From: Candidatus Uhrbacteria bacterium RIFOXYB12_FULL_58_10
Lineage (GTDB): Bacteria > Patescibacteriota > Patescibacteriia > UBA9934 > GWF2-40-263
Length of the DNA stretch: 41,367 nt
Direction of reading: 5' to 3'
NCBI GenBank assembly: GCA_001791645.1
Contig: MGFA01000014.1
Span: forward strand, 1-41,367
In this document: piece by piece, positions 4,174-40,936 of the stretch
How positions within the stretch are numbered: position 1 is the stretch's first letter
Layout: each line of letters starts with the position of its first letter
The notes under the pieces: model-generated
What the model was told of the DNA's origin: nothing
The model's input: the letters and a program-made list of their open reading frames with translations, nothing else
Database searches by the model: none
Position numbers and translations under genes: made by a program

Positions 4174-6900
4174 ATGTACATTTCACGTGAAATCATCGGT
4201 CTTTCGTTGGCCAGCGTTCTCGCATTCGGATCCGGGTGTGCCAGTGGAAAGGTCGCCCTCGACAAGGGCGGATGCGATACCGGGTCGGGTCTCATCGAGA
4301 TCTGCAACGGTGTCGACGACGACTGCGACGGCCTGGTGGACGCAGCCGACCCCGACGTCGCGGACGTCGAGATCTGGTACACGGACGGCGACTCAGACGG
4401 GTACGTGGACGGCACCTCGCCGTCGGAAAGCGGCGCCCGCGCGATGGCGTTCTGTTCCTGGGATGTCCCCGAGTACGGGGCCTCCCAGACGTTCGGCGAC
4501 TGCGATGACTCCGACCCCGCGGTCAACCCCGATGCCACCGACGTGTGCGACGGCATCGACAACAACTGTGACGCGGTCATCGATGGCGACGGCGTCTGTG
4601 ACGGCACCGACGGCGACGGCGACGGATGGGCCGAGGCCGACGGCGACTGCGACGACGACAACTCCGAGGTCCACCCGGGCGCGACGGAGTCCTGCAACGG
4701 CATGGACGACGACTGCGACGGCACGACCGACGAGGACGGCGCCCGCTGGTACGCCGACATGGACAACGACGGTTATGGTGGCACGGAGCTCGGCTACACG
4801 GGCTGCGCGCAGCCCGACGGCGCGGTCGCCATCAACAGCGACTGCAACGACGGCGACGCGAACGTGCATCCGGATGCAACCGAGGTGTGCGACGGCATCG
4901 ACAACGACTGTGACGAACTGGCGGACGATGACGACCCGGCGGTTGACATCTCCACTGGGGAAGAGTGGTATGCCGACGCCGATTCCGACGGCTATGGAAC
5001 CGATTCCATGACCGAAATGGCCTGCCAGGCTCCCACCGGGTATGTGGGCAACGACAGCGACTGCGACGACGGCGACGCGGCCATCAACCCGGCCGTACGC
5101 GAGGTCTGCGGCGACAGCGTGGACAACGACTGCGACGGCACCACTGACGTGCCGGACACGCTCTACGCCGACGTCGACGGCGATGGCTATGGCGATGACG
5201 CCGACACCACCGCATCCTGCGTGGACGTGGCCGGGTACGTCACCTTGGGCGACGACTGCGACGATCTGGACGCCACGGTCTACCCGGGCGCGAGCGAGAC
5301 GGTCGGCGACGAGGTCGACCAGAACTGCGACGGCGGCGAGACCTGTTTCGCCGACGCCGACGACGACCGCTACGCCGCCGGCTCCGGGGCCACCGTGGCC
5401 TCGGCCGACGCGGACTGCTCCGACCCGGGCGAGGCCTCGGCCTCGGCATCGGGCGGCGACTGCGACGACGCGGACAGCTCGGTCCACCCGGGCGCCACGG
5501 AGATCTGCGACGTGGTCGACAACGACTGCGACGGCACGGTCGACGAAGGGTTCGACGCCGACGTCGACGGGCACTACGCCGCCGCCGAATGTTCCTACGG
5601 CGACGACTGCGACGATCTGGACGCCACGGTCTACCCGGGCGCGAGCGAGACGGTCGGCGACGAGGTCGACCAGAACTGCGATGGCGGCGAGACCTGTTAC
5701 GCCGACGCCGACGACGACCGCTACGCCGCCGGCTCAGGGGCCACCGTGGCCTCGGCCGACGCGGACTGCTCCGACCCGGGCGAGGCCTCGGCCTCGGCAT
5801 CGGGCGGCGACTGCGACGACGCGGACAGCTCGGTCCACCCGGGCGCCACTGAGCAGTGCAATGGCACGGACGACGACTGCGACGGGTCCGTCCCCGCGGA
5901 CGAGACCGACGCCGACGGCGACGGATACGTCGGATGCGAGGGTGACTGCGACGAGTCCGACGCGTCAGTCAGCCCCGCGGGCACGGAGACCTGCGACGGC
6001 GTGGACGAAGACTGCGACGGGTCGATCGACGAGGGATTCACCCTCGTGACCTACTACCCCGACGGCGATGCGGATGCCTACGGCGATTCCGCCGCGGGAA
6101 CCACGGCGTGCGCGCCTCCCTCCGGGTACGTGACGGCCGGCGGCGACTGCGACGACGCGGACGCCTCGCTCAACCTCGACGACGCGGACGGCGACGGGTA
6201 CGACACCTGCGACGACGACTGCGACGACGCGGAGGCAGCCGCCTACCCGGGTGCCCACGAGGTCGCGATCGTCTCCTCGGCGGTCGACGACCTGTGCTCC
6301 GACGGCGTCGACAACGACTGCGACGGCGACCCCGACGCGGCGGACTGGGACTGCCAGGACGACGACGGCGATGGGACCGAGAACGGCGTCGACGTCCTGG
6401 TCGCCTACGATGGCGACACGGACGGCGACGACGACACGCTCTGCGTGATCGCGGTCGGCGAGGCCATGCCCTCGCCCTGGGACGGGTACGACGCGATCGT
6501 GCAGGGCGAGGCCTGGGGTGGTTTCTCCGCCCTGGACTCAGCCTTCACCGTGAGCGTCGAGGCCTACGCTGATTCCGACGGCGACGGCACCGACGAGGTC
6601 CGCGCCTGGTGCGTGGACTTCACAGACCCGACCTACGCCCCGTCGTACACGGCCGCGTGGAGCTGGCGCCTTGTCTCGGCGGTAGCGGAGGACGAATCCT
6701 CCACGGCGCCGAGCACTTGCACGGCCGCGTCGTCCTCGACCACGTGGCAGCGCCTCGATCTCGAGGAGTTCTGTGACGCGACCGGTGACAAATGGTGTCG
6801 CGTCGGATACACGGATGTCGACGGCTGTGGGGACAGCATCTCCTCCGGCCTCGTACGGGTCGACTTCGACGCCACCGCCGACTCGATCGCGCCCCACTAG
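4174..6900 (+). CDS. Secreted MopE-type Cys/Asp-repeat metal-binding protein
   Basis: 908-aa protein starting at an ATG with an AGAGG 5 nt upstream. The N-terminus has a short hydrophobic signal (about residues 8-20) ending in GSGC, a possible but atypical lipobox. From about residue 45 to 725 it is built of alternating units of two kinds: C(D/N)GxD(D/N)(D/N)CDG (about eleven copies) and GDCDDxDxxVxPGAxE. This is the pattern of the putative metal-binding motif family (PF11617, MopE-like), common in Myxococcota and relatives. Dense Asp suggests calcium or other cation binding. The last 180 residues form a separate domain with several Cys (DTLCVIAVGE, RAWCVDFTDP). Composition is extreme (GAC, GGC and GCC codons dominate), unlike its neighbours, which suggests transfer. 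The open frame upstream to 3748 is antisense to PP2C and not coding. Confidence 0.85.
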   Translation: MYISREIIGLSLASVLAFGSGCASGKVALDKGGCDTGSGLIEICNGVDDDCDGLVDAADPDVADVEIWYTDGDSDGYVDGTSPSESGARAMAFCSWDVPEYGASQTFGDCDDSDPAVNPDATDVCDGIDNNCDAVIDGDGVCDGTDGDGDGWAEADGDCDDDNSEVHPGATESCNGMDDDCDGTTDEDGARWYADMDNDGYGGTELGYTGCAQPDGAVAINSDCNDGDANVHPDATEVCDGIDNDCDELADDDDPAVDISTGEEWYADADSDGYGTDSMTEMACQAPTGYVGNDSDCDDGDAAINPAVREVCGDSVDNDCDGTTDVPDTLYADVDGDGYGDDADTTASCVDVAGYVTLGDDCDDLDATVYPGASETVGDEVDQNCDGGETCFADADDDRYAAGSGATVASADADCSDPGEASASASGGDCDDADSSVHPGATEICDVVDNDCDGTVDEGFDADVDGHYAAAECSYGDDCDDLDATVYPGASETVGDEVDQNCDGGETCYADADDDRYAAGSGATVASADADCSDPGEASASASGGDCDDADSSVHPGATEQCNGTDDDCDGSVPADETDADGDGYVGCEGDCDESDASVSPAGTETCDGVDEDCDGSIDEGFTLVTYYPDGDADAYGDSAAGTTACAPPSGYVTAGGDCDDADASLNLDDADGDGYDTCDDDCDDAEAAAYPGAHEVAIVSSAVDDLCSDGVDNDCDGDPDAADWDCQDDDGDGTENGVDVLVAYDGDTDGDDDTLCVIAVGEAMPSPWDGYDAIVQGEAWGGFSALDSAFTVSVEAYADSDGDGTDEVRAWCVDFTDPTYAPSYTAAWSWRLVSAVAEDESSTAPSTCTAASSSTTWQRLDLEEFCDATGDKWCRVGYTDVDGCGDSISSGLVRVDFDATADSIAPH
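5248..5498 (+). repeat. First copy of a 251-bp near-identical direct repeat
   Basis: This segment recurs 351 bp downstream at 5599-5849 with only about three substitutions, encoding nearly the same 83 residues (CFADAD here, CYADAD in copy 2). The 351-bp period is 117 codons, so the frame is kept. It looks like a recent in-frame tandem duplication or gene conversion within the MopE-like gene. Confidence 0.9.
5599..5849 (+). repeat. Second copy of the 251-bp near-identical direct repeat
   Basis: Copy 2 of the segment at 5248-5498. The 100 nt after copy 1 (5499-5598) and the sequence after copy 2 are related but clearly diverged. The identity is therefore confined to this block rather than the whole 351-bp period. 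Confidence 0.9.
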
Positions 6901-16927: not shown

Positions 16928-17004
16928 GCGCCCGTAGCTCAGCTGGATAGAGCACTTCCCTCCGAAGGAAGGGGTCAGACGTTCGAATCGTCTCGGGCGC
17001 ACCA
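16928..17004 (+). tRNA. tRNA-Arg (anticodon CCG)
   Basis: Full cloverleaf: acceptor GCGCCCG/CGGGCGC, D-arm GCTC...GAGC, anticodon stem CTTCC/GGAAG with loop CTCCGAA (anticodon CCG, reads CGG), T-arm AGACG-TTCGAAT-CGTCT, discriminator A and an encoded CCA (17002-17004). It has its own promoter and terminator. Confidence 0.97.
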
Positions 17005-17033
17005 AAAAAGATCCTCGCGCGAGGATCTTTTTT
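17005..17033 (+). terminator. Bidirectional terminator after tRNA-Arg
   Basis: A perfect palindrome GATCCTCGC/GCGAGGATC flanked by A5 and T6. It works for the tRNA on the plus strand and for the surface-protein operon ending at 17042 on the minus strand. Confidence 0.9.
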
Positions 17034-17041
17034 GTTGTTTA

Positions 17042-22746: not shown

Positions 22747-23856
22747 TCAGAAAATTTTTTCCTGCTCGAAAATGGCGAGCGTCTGCTTGGCGGCCCGGTT
22801 CCATGAGAAACGGACGGCGCGTTCGAGACCCATTCGTTTGAGGCGCTCCTGAAGCATTGGAGCGGACAAAAGTTGTTCAAGCGCGAGCGTGATTTCGTCT
22901 GTGCGAAACGGGTTTACGAGAATGGCCGCGTCGCCCGTGAGCTCGGGAATGGAGGAAGTATGGCTCGAAATGACCGGCAATCCGGAGGCCATGGCCTCGA
23001 GCACCGGGAGCCCGAACCCTTCGTACGCGGATGGCCACGTGAAAACGGTCGCGGCGCGGTAGATGGCCGGAAGGTCCCCGCGCGGGACGTAGCCGAGATG
23101 GTGGGTCCAGGAAGAGGCGGCATGGAGCCTGTTGCGGATCGGCCCGCTTTTCCATCCCCAGCCGCCAACAAGGACGAGACGCAGGTCGTCGCCGGACGCG
23201 CGCCGGTACGCTTCGACCGCGTCAATGAGCGCAACGACGTTTTTGCGCGGCTCCAGCGTGCCGACGAACAGGGCAAATCGTTTGGGCAGTCTGTGCTTTC
23301 CGCGGACGCCGTGGTCCTGTGCCGTGAAGATCGGTGAGAACATGGGGTCAACGCCGTGCGGGACCACATGCACCCGCCCTTCCAAAATTTGAAAATGCCG
23401 GACCACGTCTTCCTTTGTCGCGGTCGATGGCACGATAACGGCCGCTGCGTTCGCGACCAGCCGATCTGGCCGGATTTCGCGATGCCAGAGCCGCATTTTC
23501 CGGGAGAAATACTCCGGGAAGTGAATCCAGGAAAGGTCGTGGAGCGAGAGCGCGTACGGGATGTCGGGGGAGATGGTCGTGTAGTTCAGGTTCGGAAGCC
23601 AGACAAGGTCGGGCCTGGTCGCGGCAAGGCGGTCGATGCGCGGCCATCCTGCCGCGTACGTGGTTAGTTTCAACAGGCGATTCGGCACCGCGAGGTGCGT
23701 CGTCTCGACCGGCGGGCGGCGGAGTCCTGAGGAAAACAGCTCGAAGGAATGGCGCGAGGCAATATCGAAAAGGGCGCGAAGGAGCGCGCTCGTGTACTCC
23801 CCCACGCCCGTTTTGTGTCGATCCGACAAATGTCGGACGTCGACGAGGATCTGCAT
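22747..23856 (-). CDS. GT4-family glycosyltransferase
   Basis: 369-aa GT-B enzyme. [26 protein letters not shown] is the N-terminal acceptor loop region with [25 protein letters not shown] marks the donor domain start (about 196-214), and [20 protein letters not shown] carries the EX7E motif (about 284-303). It resembles mannosyl/rhamnosyl-type GT4 enzymes of O-antigen clusters; specificity is not readable. It follows the next GT4 gene across a 30-nt gap holding a 17-bp inverted repeat. Confidence 0.9.
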
Positions 23857-23867
23857 AGAAAATTTAA

Positions 23868-23907
23868 AGATACAAGAAACAAAAACTAGATTTTGTTTCT
23901 TGTATCT
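23868..23907 (-). repeat. Perfect 17-bp inverted repeat between two glycosyltransferase genes
   Basis: AGATACAAGAAACAAAA (23868-23884) and its exact reverse complement (23891-23907) surround a 6-nt loop containing CTAG. It is AT-rich in a GC-rich region, encodes the last residues (DTRNKI) and stop of the upstream gene, and ends about 11 nt before the downstream ATG. It could form an RNA hairpin that attenuates, stabilises or is processed. It resembles the dispersed KIQDTRYKIQ-type repeats I associate with CPR protein termini (recollection, not checked). Confidence 0.85.
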
Positions 23908-24998
23908 TCTAATTTTTCTTCATACGCTCGTTCCACGAGCTCTTGCATTTCCCGCTTGAACCGTTCGCGTCCGAACCGCTCGGCATGCGCGCGGATGGCC
24001 GTCGGGTCGTACGCGGCATCGTTGAACCGGATCAGATGGTCGGCCAGCTCTTCCCAGGACTGCTCGTCAAACAGTTCGCCCGTGACGCCGTCGATGACCG
24101 TTTCTGTCGCGCCGCCGCGACGATACGCGACGACCGGCCGGCCCGCGGACATGGATTCGACGGCCGTGATGCCGAAGTCTTCCTCGTGCGGGTGGATGAA
24201 CGCCTTGGCGTCCGCGAAAAGCGCGGGCAGGTCCTCGTCGGGAACGCGTCCCAGGAATTCGACGTTGCTGCGCGCCATTTTTTTGAGGTCCTTCATGACC
24301 GGCCCGGTTCCGAAGATCTTGAGCTTGAATCCGGTGCGATTGCACGCCTCGATAACGAGGTCGAACCGCTTGTACGCGACCAGACGTCCGCCCGTGAGGA
24401 AATAGGTTTTGGGCGCGTCGGACACGGAGAAGCGGTGCGTGTCCACCGGCGGGTGCACGACGGCGCTGTCGCGGCCGTAGTATTTTTCAATGCGGTCCTT
24501 TACGGTGCGCGAGTTGGCGACGAACGCGTCCACGCGGTCCGCGGCCTGGCGGTCCCAAACGCGGAGCATCGACAAAAACGGCGGGAGCAGGGATTTCACC
24601 ACGCGCGGGATGCGCAGCTCCTCCACGTAGGACAGCGTGTCCGTCCAAAGGAATCGCGTCGGCGTGTGACAGTAGCAAACGTGCAGGGCGCCCGGCCGCG
24701 TAATTACGCCCTTTGCGAATGCGCTTGTGGAGGACACCACCACGTCGTATTCCGACAGGTCGTAGTGTTCCGTGGCGGTCGGCATGAGCGTGAGATACCA
24801 CTGGAACTTCGACTGGATGAGCGGCGCGCGCTGTAAAAAAGATGTCCGCACGTCCTTCCCCTTGAATTGGGGCAAGCGATCCGGATCAAAGAACAGGGTG
24901 TAGGTCGGCGCCTCGGGCCAGATCTCCTGGAGCACCGAAAGCACCTTTTCCGCCCCGCCATCCTGCTTCAGATAGTCGTGTACGAGCGCGAGTTTCAT
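23886..24998 (-). CDS. GT4-family glycosyltransferase (WbaZ/mannosyltransferase-like)
   Basis: 370-aa GT-B enzyme. MKLALVHDYLKQDGGAEKVLSVL is the characteristic start of a WbaZ/mannosyltransferase-like group. HVCYCHTPTRFLW (about 130-142) is a typical mid-domain motif, and YFLTGGRLVAYKRFDLVIEA opens the donor domain. The EX7E region is degenerate but present: HPHEEDFGITAVESMSAGRPVV. The last six residues lie in the inverted repeat at 23868-23907 and look added. A strong promoter lies just upstream. Predicted to build the surface polysaccharide with the other GT4 enzymes and the sugar transferase at 25.7-27.2 kb. Confidence 0.9.
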   Translation of the reverse strand: MKLALVHDYLKQDGGAEKVLSVLQEIWPEAPTYTLFFDPDRLPQFKGKDVRTSFLQRAPLIQSKFQWYLTLMPTATEHYDLSEYDVVVSSTSAFAKGVITRPGALHVCYCHTPTRFLWTDTLSYVEELRIPRVVKSLLPPFLSMLRVWDRQAADRVDAFVANSRTVKDRIEKYYGRDSAVVHPPVDTHRFSVSDAPKTYFLTGGRLVAYKRFDLVIEACNRTGFKLKIFGTGPVMKDLKKMARSNVEFLGRVPDEDLPALFADAKAFIHPHEEDFGITAVESMSAGRPVVAYRRGGATETVIDGVTGELFDEQSWEELADHLIRFNDAAYDPTAIRAHAERFGRERFKREMQELVERAYEEKLEDTRNKI

Positions 24999-27229: not shown

Positions 27230-27695
27230 GTCTTCGGAGTGCCGGATGGCTACTCCGGCGTTACGTCGGAGAGGAAAGTCCGAACACCCTCCGCGTCGCA
27301 AGGCGCGGTGCGTCGAGCCTCGGCTCGATGGGAAGCCGTTAACGACGGCCGGGTATAAGAATCGGGAGTCGAGGCATTGGAGAAATCTATGCTCTGGTTC
27401 CGGACTCAAAGCCCAGGGAAAGTACCACAGAGACAATACTATCCCACGTCGCTCCTTTGGAGCGATGTTTGGGAGAAAGGTGAAAAGTACGTCGAGGTTC
27501 GCGTCCTGCCATTCGGCAGGACGGTGGCCACGGCGTTCGTCTCCCGGTAACGGGATGACGTGGCAAACCCTTCCCGGTGCAAGAACAAGTTTGGTAGTTC
27601 GCTAGAGCTCCGGCGCAAGTCGGAGACAAGAGAGATTGCCATCTCCTCCGCGCAAGCGGGGCAGACAAAATTCGGCTTACAGACACTTCCGAAGA
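27230..27695 (+). ncRNA. rnpB: RNase P RNA (bacterial type A-like)
   Basis: Catalytic RNA that matures tRNA 5' ends. Diagnostic sequences: GAGGAAAGTCCGAACACC near 27270, the segment around CCACAGAGACAATAC (27425), the GGTAA-type P15 region, and a 3' block ACAAAATTCGGCTTACAG (27665-27682) close to the consensus ending. The two ends pair as helix P1 (GTCTTCGGAGTG with CACTTCCGAAGAC). Length about 466 nt, rather long because of peripheral helices, such as CGTCCTGCC/GGCAGGACG around 27510. Short frames across it are not coding. Confidence 0.93.
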
Positions 27696-27698
27696 CAC

Positions 27699-40072: not shown

Positions 40073-40106
40073 AAACCCCCCGGTCGTATTCACGACCGGG
40101 GGGTTT
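40073..40106 (-). terminator. Terminator of the 147-aa gene
   Basis: Perfect 15-bp stem AAACCCCCCGGTCGT with its complement around ATTC, flanked by A and T runs; probably works in both directions. Confidence 0.75.
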
Positions 40107-40904: not shown

Positions 40905-40936
40905 AATCCCCCGGCCGCGATTGCGGCCGGGGGATT
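40905..40936 (-). terminator. Hairpin after the HicA remnant, terminator-like
   Basis: Perfect 14-bp stem AATCCCCCGGCCGC and complement around GATT. It lacks a T-tract, so termination may be weak. The same CCCCCGG theme occurs in the 40073-40106 hairpin. Confidence 0.6.

Follow-up and report, generated by a model that had tools for sequence, protein, structure and literature searches.

A probable dispersed palindromic insertion with inverted heptamer arms at gene ends of a Candidatus Uhrbacteria genome

A palindrome at the junction of two glycosyltransferase genes

The window, the 41,367-nucleotide stretch of DNA that we analyzed, is contig 14 of the 1.12-Mb genome of Candidatus Uhrbacteria bacterium RIFOXYB12_FULL_58_10 (G000), which is assembled in 28 contigs. 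Two genes for GT4-type glycosyltransferases, here GT1 and GT2, follow each other on its minus strand, and a palindrome lies at their junction (Table 1). The original prediction of a perfect 17-bp inverted repeat overlapping the stop codon of a glycosyltransferase gene was confirmed, as the 17-mer AGATACAAGAAACAAAA and its exact reverse complement flank the hexanucleotide ACTAGA. The extent of 40 bp first given to it was too short. Ungapped extension lengthened the arms to 29 nt with 90% complementarity (23859-23887 and 23888-23916), and with its outer GAAAATT...AATTTT ends the element measures about 58 to 60 bp. It is the longest among the 15 inverted repeats listed for the window at a distance of 60 nt or less. 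The 17-mer has two matches in the window at up to three mismatches, where dinucleotide shuffles expect 0.01. The minus-strand RNA of the palindrome folds at -29.4 kcal/mol, compared to a shuffle mean of -9.6 (z = -7.7).

Elsewhere in the window, we noted two GC-rich hairpins with perfect stems of 15 and 14 bp around 4-nt loops (40073-40106 and 40905-40936), which are probably ordinary terminators, a nearly perfect palindrome of 38 nt at the 3' terminus of the tRNA-Arg gene (17000-17037), a degenerate hexamer array of CGACGG with 13.7 copies (4581-4659), and a class A RNase P RNA (27234-27696). An Rfam scan of the window at gathering thresholds returned only RNase P and one tRNA; the palindrome matched no family.

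Table 1. Features at the GT1/GT2 junction
Feature	Coordinates	Strand	Description
Whole palindromic element	23859..23916	none	29-nt arms, 90% complementary; outer motif (G)AAAATTTAAAG / CTTCTAATTTT; pattern match 23858-23916; six-copy alignment
Left core arm	23868..23884	+	Heptamers AGATACA and AGAAACA, then AAA
Loop	23885..23890	none	6 nt, ACTAGA; contains GT1 stop codon
Right core arm	23891..23907	-	Exact reverse complement of the left core arm
GT1, GT4-type glycosyltransferase, 370 aa	23886..24998	-	ORF; Pfam PF00534, PF13439
GT2, GT4-type glycosyltransferase downstream of GT1	22747..23856	-	ORF; Pfam; ATG 29 nt past GT1 stop
Last ten GT1 codons (EKLEDTRNKI)	23889..23918	-	Past homology with congeners; almost wholly within element

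Copies in the genome and the same junctions in congeners

We searched G000 with the 17-mer at up to three mismatches, with a palindrome pattern, and with one copy as a BLAST query. The repeat had been proposed to be dispersed, and this was borne out: instead of a single copy, we found at least six palindromic copies in the genome (C6:21484, C14:23858 in the window, C2:25278, C19:24121, C1 near 29485, and C5:20839) and two half copies (C5:8181 and C5:41618), together spread over six contigs. Reversed control patterns gave 0 matches in the same genome. The six copies align with common ends, GAAAAT...ATTTT, while their flanks are unrelated, and most are 58 to 60 bp long. The outer ends are sharp across all six, and a constant 12-nt interval separates the heptamer runs in four of them. 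Among 144 genomes, the palindrome pattern, which in G000 itself detects just four of the six copies, matched G000 alone and none of the 143 related genomes, the four congeners (G001 to G004) among them.

GT1 and GT2 are adjacent in all four congeners, where they overlap or lie no more than 5 nt apart, and the palindrome is absent from the junction in each. By Pfam, the neighbors of the C6 copy are genes encoding a RecG-like helicase and a RadA-like protein. A gap of 1 nt separates the two stop codons in G002 and G003, compared to 58 nt in G000, and the element accounts for the difference. The site is thus empty in relatives at GT1/GT2 (4/4 congeners) and at RecG/RadA, where it is clean in G002 and G003. 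Inspecting the ends by eye for a target-site duplication, we found TA at both ends of the RecG/RadA site and no duplication at the other sites. Both TA pairs are letters of stop codons, and no consistent target-site duplication was seen. No heptamer palindrome follows groEL (PF00118) in the three congeners in which groEL was found (G002, G003, and G004); the groEL search in G001 gave no match.

Other repeats were seen at these places in the congeners. In G004 (L298), the RecG/RadA junction carries a different, GC-rich palindrome of about 90 bp (CCCCTCCTTGAAAAGGAGGGG and its inverse), unrelated to the heptamer palindrome. Since it sits at exactly the junction that holds the heptamer palindrome in G000, this junction appears to be an insertion hot spot. 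Sites that hold palindromes in G000 are taken up by octamer arrays (AAAGTGAT-like; TCACTCCA-like) after the groEL stop codon in G004 (L301) and at the GT1/GT2 junction in G001 (L235), where the short octamer-like array stands in place of the palindrome. G003 and G004 each contain one copy of a 16-mer related to these octamer arrays.

The congeners also bear on the end of the GT1 protein. GT1 terminates in ...EEKLEDTRNKI*, and its TAG stop codon (23886-23888) falls within the palindrome loop. In the search alignments with the four congeners, similarity stops at residue 359-360; a local alignment in G002 extends to residue 368 through a chance-like ETRN tail. Because homology fades at about residue 360, the last ten residues (EKLEDTRNKI, codons 361-370) derive from the insert. 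DTRNKI had been suspected of being appended, and the tail is indeed absent from the orthologues of all four congeners; a tail conserved among the C-termini of relatives was not what we found. In this genome the palindromic element provides both the tail and the stop codon of GT1.

Heptamer arms and period-7 arrays in other genomes

A palindrome scan of 84,980 species genomes returned 21 contigs, 8 of them titled as CPR (Peregrinibacteria, Peribacteria/Peribacterales, Parcubacteria, and Buchananbacteria). Elements with at least two heptamers on both arms were present on 6 of the 8 CPR-titled contigs and on 0 of the 13 others. The earlier placement of the repeat among those of CPR genomes therefore stands for this form, which lay only on CPR-titled contigs (6 of the 21), rather than for every palindrome returned. 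The arms are runs of AGATACA, AGAAACA, and their variants, mostly 2 to 4 units long, that face inward around 6 to 46 nt; the position-specific variation within the heptamer is partly fixed by the search pattern used. In the genomes behind these contigs, arm counts for G144, G145, G146, G148, and G150 were 35, 22, 19, 24, and 15, with 0, 0, 0, 4, and 0 for the reversed control.

In an even draw across the phylum, the distribution was patchy, with at least one arm in 51 of 379 genomes and 10 or more in 8, including G410 (30), G464 (29), and G441 (24). The reversed control matched 20 genomes of this draw by our own count, mostly with one or two matches; the 17 matches in G180 and 25 in G294 are another heptamer word, AACANAG. 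This second family (AACATAG/AACAAAG/AACAGAG) is dispersed in the CPR genomes G294, G180, G285, and G241 (L239-L268), alongside many other period-7 arrays.

Inverted partners within 100 nt faced inward for 67 of 89 arms and outward for none in eight genomes that had been selected for holding a palindrome. In seven genomes picked by the arm pattern alone, the counts were 17 inward (8 of them in G410) and 0 outward among 47 arms, and only 10 of 40 loci were paired. At 30 loci from the phylum draw, 3 of 32 arms had an inverted partner, and many of the matches resemble coding sequence. An outer AAAAT motif stood beside 9 of 10 arms in G000, 8 of 17 in G145 (Peribacterales), and 0 of 21 in G144, with a background near 1%.

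Gene contexts were assigned with a custom gene caller, not a standard one, which left 5 of 42 sites unclassifiable. Thirty-six of the 37 classifiable sites are intergenic (26 tandem, 7 divergent, and 3 convergent), so that all three kinds of junction are occupied, and the one site called inside a gene possibly reflects a start-codon error. Elements are found directly after stop codons. In a set of 40 elements gathered by a relaxed rule, 12 of which fall short of two units on an arm and some of whose partners (e.g., at L147, L149, and L157) look like chance, the element encodes a C-terminus in 5: the one in the window (...LEDTRNKI) and four in two other genomes (...YKKQDTRNKE, ...KIQETRYKE, and ...RQETKA in G144 and ...QRKQETRNNFQNYS in G145).

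Arrays of period 7 were counted in unselected DNA as well. The second unselected CPR set (292 kb) had 12 local arrays of period 7 and three of period 14, with each remaining period between 4 and 15 represented once at most; the first (319 kb) had 7 of period 7 versus up to 5 for other periods, and a viral control (59 loci, 480 kb) had one of period 7. Mean identity at lag 7 was not raised in the first unselected stretches, G000 included. As the signal is confined to local array counts and to 7 of 39 unselected stretches (0 of 3 from G000), we do not claim that it is widespread in every CPR genome. Intergenic DNA of unselected CPR stretches contained 66 CAA/TTG pairs at distance 7, versus a mean of 37 at other distances. 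The excess was weak in the earlier unselected set (53 versus 42, with other distances up to 57) and was also seen in a biased non-CPR set (30 versus 9), so exclusivity to CPR is not claimed. The array counts fit what passages of two sources report: in most prokaryote genomes, heptanucleotides outnumber all other long simple repeats (cited in PMC4679880), and cyanobacterial STRR are usually 7-bp intergenic repeats that are able to form hairpins and whose function is unknown (PMC2670836).

Several elements found without palindrome selection extend inward as other CAA-phased heptamers. By eye, longer inverted arrays with CAA every 7 nt, changing words, and mirroring TTG were seen in G458, G370, G324, and G415 (L332-L339 and L346-L360). 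We regard as tentative, and on balance unlikely, a broad CPR class of mobile inverted arrays with a 7-nt phase (CAA on the left, TTG on the right, with lineage-specific words), which some unrecognized machinery reading the 7-nt period would move or copy and which would repeatedly reshape gene junctions and protein C-termini.

Origin of the element and its relation to known repeats

The comparisons above show, at the level of sequence, an element that is multi-copy, whose junctions are empty in congeners, and that has related inverted heptamer arrays in distant CPR genomes. We believe, with a probability of roughly two in three, that 23859-23916 belongs to a set of dispersed, non-autonomous palindromic insertions with inward-facing degenerate heptamers (AGA-N-ACA and variants) and outer GAAAATTnA / TnAATTTTC motifs. 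Copies would arrive as whole units and be tolerated where genes stay unbroken, so that they would accumulate right at gene ends. At GT1/GT2, arrival would have pushed apart two genes whose counterparts in congeners overlap or almost abut. The transcript can fold into a long AU-rich hairpin, for which we propose no dedicated function. Candidate routes of movement are a transposase acting in trans and hairpin-driven template switching during replication.

The search for an autonomous partner covered one transposase family, Y1_Tnp (PF01797), which was present in 12 of 16 array-bearing genomes versus 17 of 24 others, that is, with no association. None of 20 Y1 loci had heptamer arms flanking the gene, and one match fell inside a Y1 gene. 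An element of the REP/RAYT type was rejected on these grounds, since copy number is not tied to the Y1 transposase. We also rejected a phage origin. The exact 17-mer occurs in 59 viral stretches with one match each, hence in none with both exact arms, and the palindrome pattern matched one viral stretch, which lacks a second heptamer on either side.

Degenerate heptanucleotide arrays resembling STRR could instead have grown in place by replication slippage, in which case local hairpin-driven template switching, not insertion of a unit, would have produced the inverted arms. The number and order of the heptamer words vary, period 7 dominates the second unselected CPR set, single arms occur (two in G000), other words such as AACANAG are found in other CPR genomes, and comparable places in congeners bear octamer arrays, all of which speaks for this account. 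The six G000 copies, however, share sharp outer ends and in four cases a fixed 12-nt interval, inverted partners always face inward and never outward, and the outer motif recurs in a Peribacterales genome. We therefore find growth in place a doubtful account of the whole element. Given the single arms and the CPR arrays of many other heptamer words, local slippage expansion must also contribute.

Two other explanations assign the palindrome a role in expression. A bidirectional intrinsic terminator, or a 3'-end-stabilizing hairpin kept for that purpose, would fit the symmetric order of A-run, stem, loop, stem, and T-run, the flagging of the stem on both strands by a pattern scan, and the position of elements directly after stop codons; moreover, 10 of 10 other tested copies fold far above shuffles (z from -4.8 to -10.3). 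On the other hand, the scan gave 7 terminator-like sites versus 7.4 in shuffles, the stem has just four G-C pairs and so is not GC-rich, divergent sites outnumber convergent ones by 7 to 3 among the 36 intergenic sites, and a terminator would be odd between genes that in congeners overlap or lie almost end to end. The arms also do not covary with their partners. In 28 elements with at least two units on both arms, complementarity in the best register was 31 versus 28.3 (P = 0.19), with P = 0.45 for duplex energy, and arms of the same element had identical heptamers in 24 of 73 cases versus 30% in shuffles (P = 0.24). Taken over the whole family, an RNA hairpin conserved by pairing was rejected, as arms match their own partner no better than the arms of other copies in the same genome; pairing thus reflects the shared words, with no selection seen at single loci. 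Neither this result nor the 7 of 36 divergent sites favors a dedicated terminator or a conserved RNA hairpin, and we judge a terminator very unlikely. The suggestion that an RNA hairpin might regulate the downstream gene likewise found no support in these alignments and gene contexts, as the hairpin can form but its arms are not partner specific.

A translational switch, in which the ribosome terminating on GT1 opens the stem and exposes the GT2 start 29 nt downstream, would make GT2 translation dependent on that of GT1. The order of GT1 stop codon, stem, and GT2 start agrees with this, and the tight spacing of the two genes in congeners suggests earlier coupling. Against it, a stop codon lies within the element in only 5 of 40 elements, the arrangement is unique to the species of the window among the congeners, and arm covariation was not seen, which together make a switch exceedingly improbable.

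Reading the palindrome as a dispersed insertion invites comparison with several known repeats. RUP, ERIC, and Correia/NEMIS are bacterial MITE-like small mobile repeats, reviewed in PMC2229807. Like them, as characterized in passages of that review, the present element is shorter than 200 bp and AT-rich, has terminal inverted repeats and a long stem-loop, is mostly intergenic, and may supply a reading frame to its neighbors; the mobilizer in such cases is usually unknown. By the criteria for a MITE, it is short, multi-copy, and dispersed, with terminal inverted repeats and empty sites in relatives. Unlike these repeats, its arms are degenerate heptamer runs of variable number, a consistent target-site duplication was not seen, and the search around Y1 transposases turned up no matching IS. 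Rickettsia palindromic elements (RPE), as outlined in the same review (PMC2229807), are also palindromic and add translated residues to host proteins. By that description, RPE are set apart by their length of 105 to 146 bp and their position in frame inside genes, compared to 58 to 60 bp and C-terminal ends only here.

Cyanobacterial STRR share the degenerate 7-nt units, the intergenic position (36 of 37 sites here), and the capacity for hairpins, going by the part of PMC2670836 that treats them. The present element differs from STRR in having no long direct tandem runs of a cyanobacterial STRR word, 2 to 4 units per arm, inverted pairs, and an outer motif, and in occurring in CPR. The heptamer words of cyanobacterial STRR also differ from the AGATACA/AGAAACA words. 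The TAACTGA repeats of marine Beggiatoaceae are likewise intergenic heptanucleotide repeats, but the relevant passages of PMC4679880 describe a single exact word repeated directly, with one inverted case in 170 sets, as opposed to degenerate inverted pairs. Thus, the element is species-specific, dispersed, and heptamer-armed; it behaves like a MITE or REP and looks like an inverted STRR, and it fits neither definition fully.

The literature searched yielded no paper on such mobile repeats of these reduced genomes, and the passages found of PMC4736985 do not mention such repeats. Reduced genomes have very little intergenic DNA, and mobile repeats there are little described. With such precise empty sites in congeners, the arrival of elements of this kind can be dated and tested. 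Odd protein tails such as DTRNKI and QDTRNKE are explained as repeat-derived rather than as functional motifs, and tails of this origin matter for annotation and for predictions of structure and C-terminal signals.
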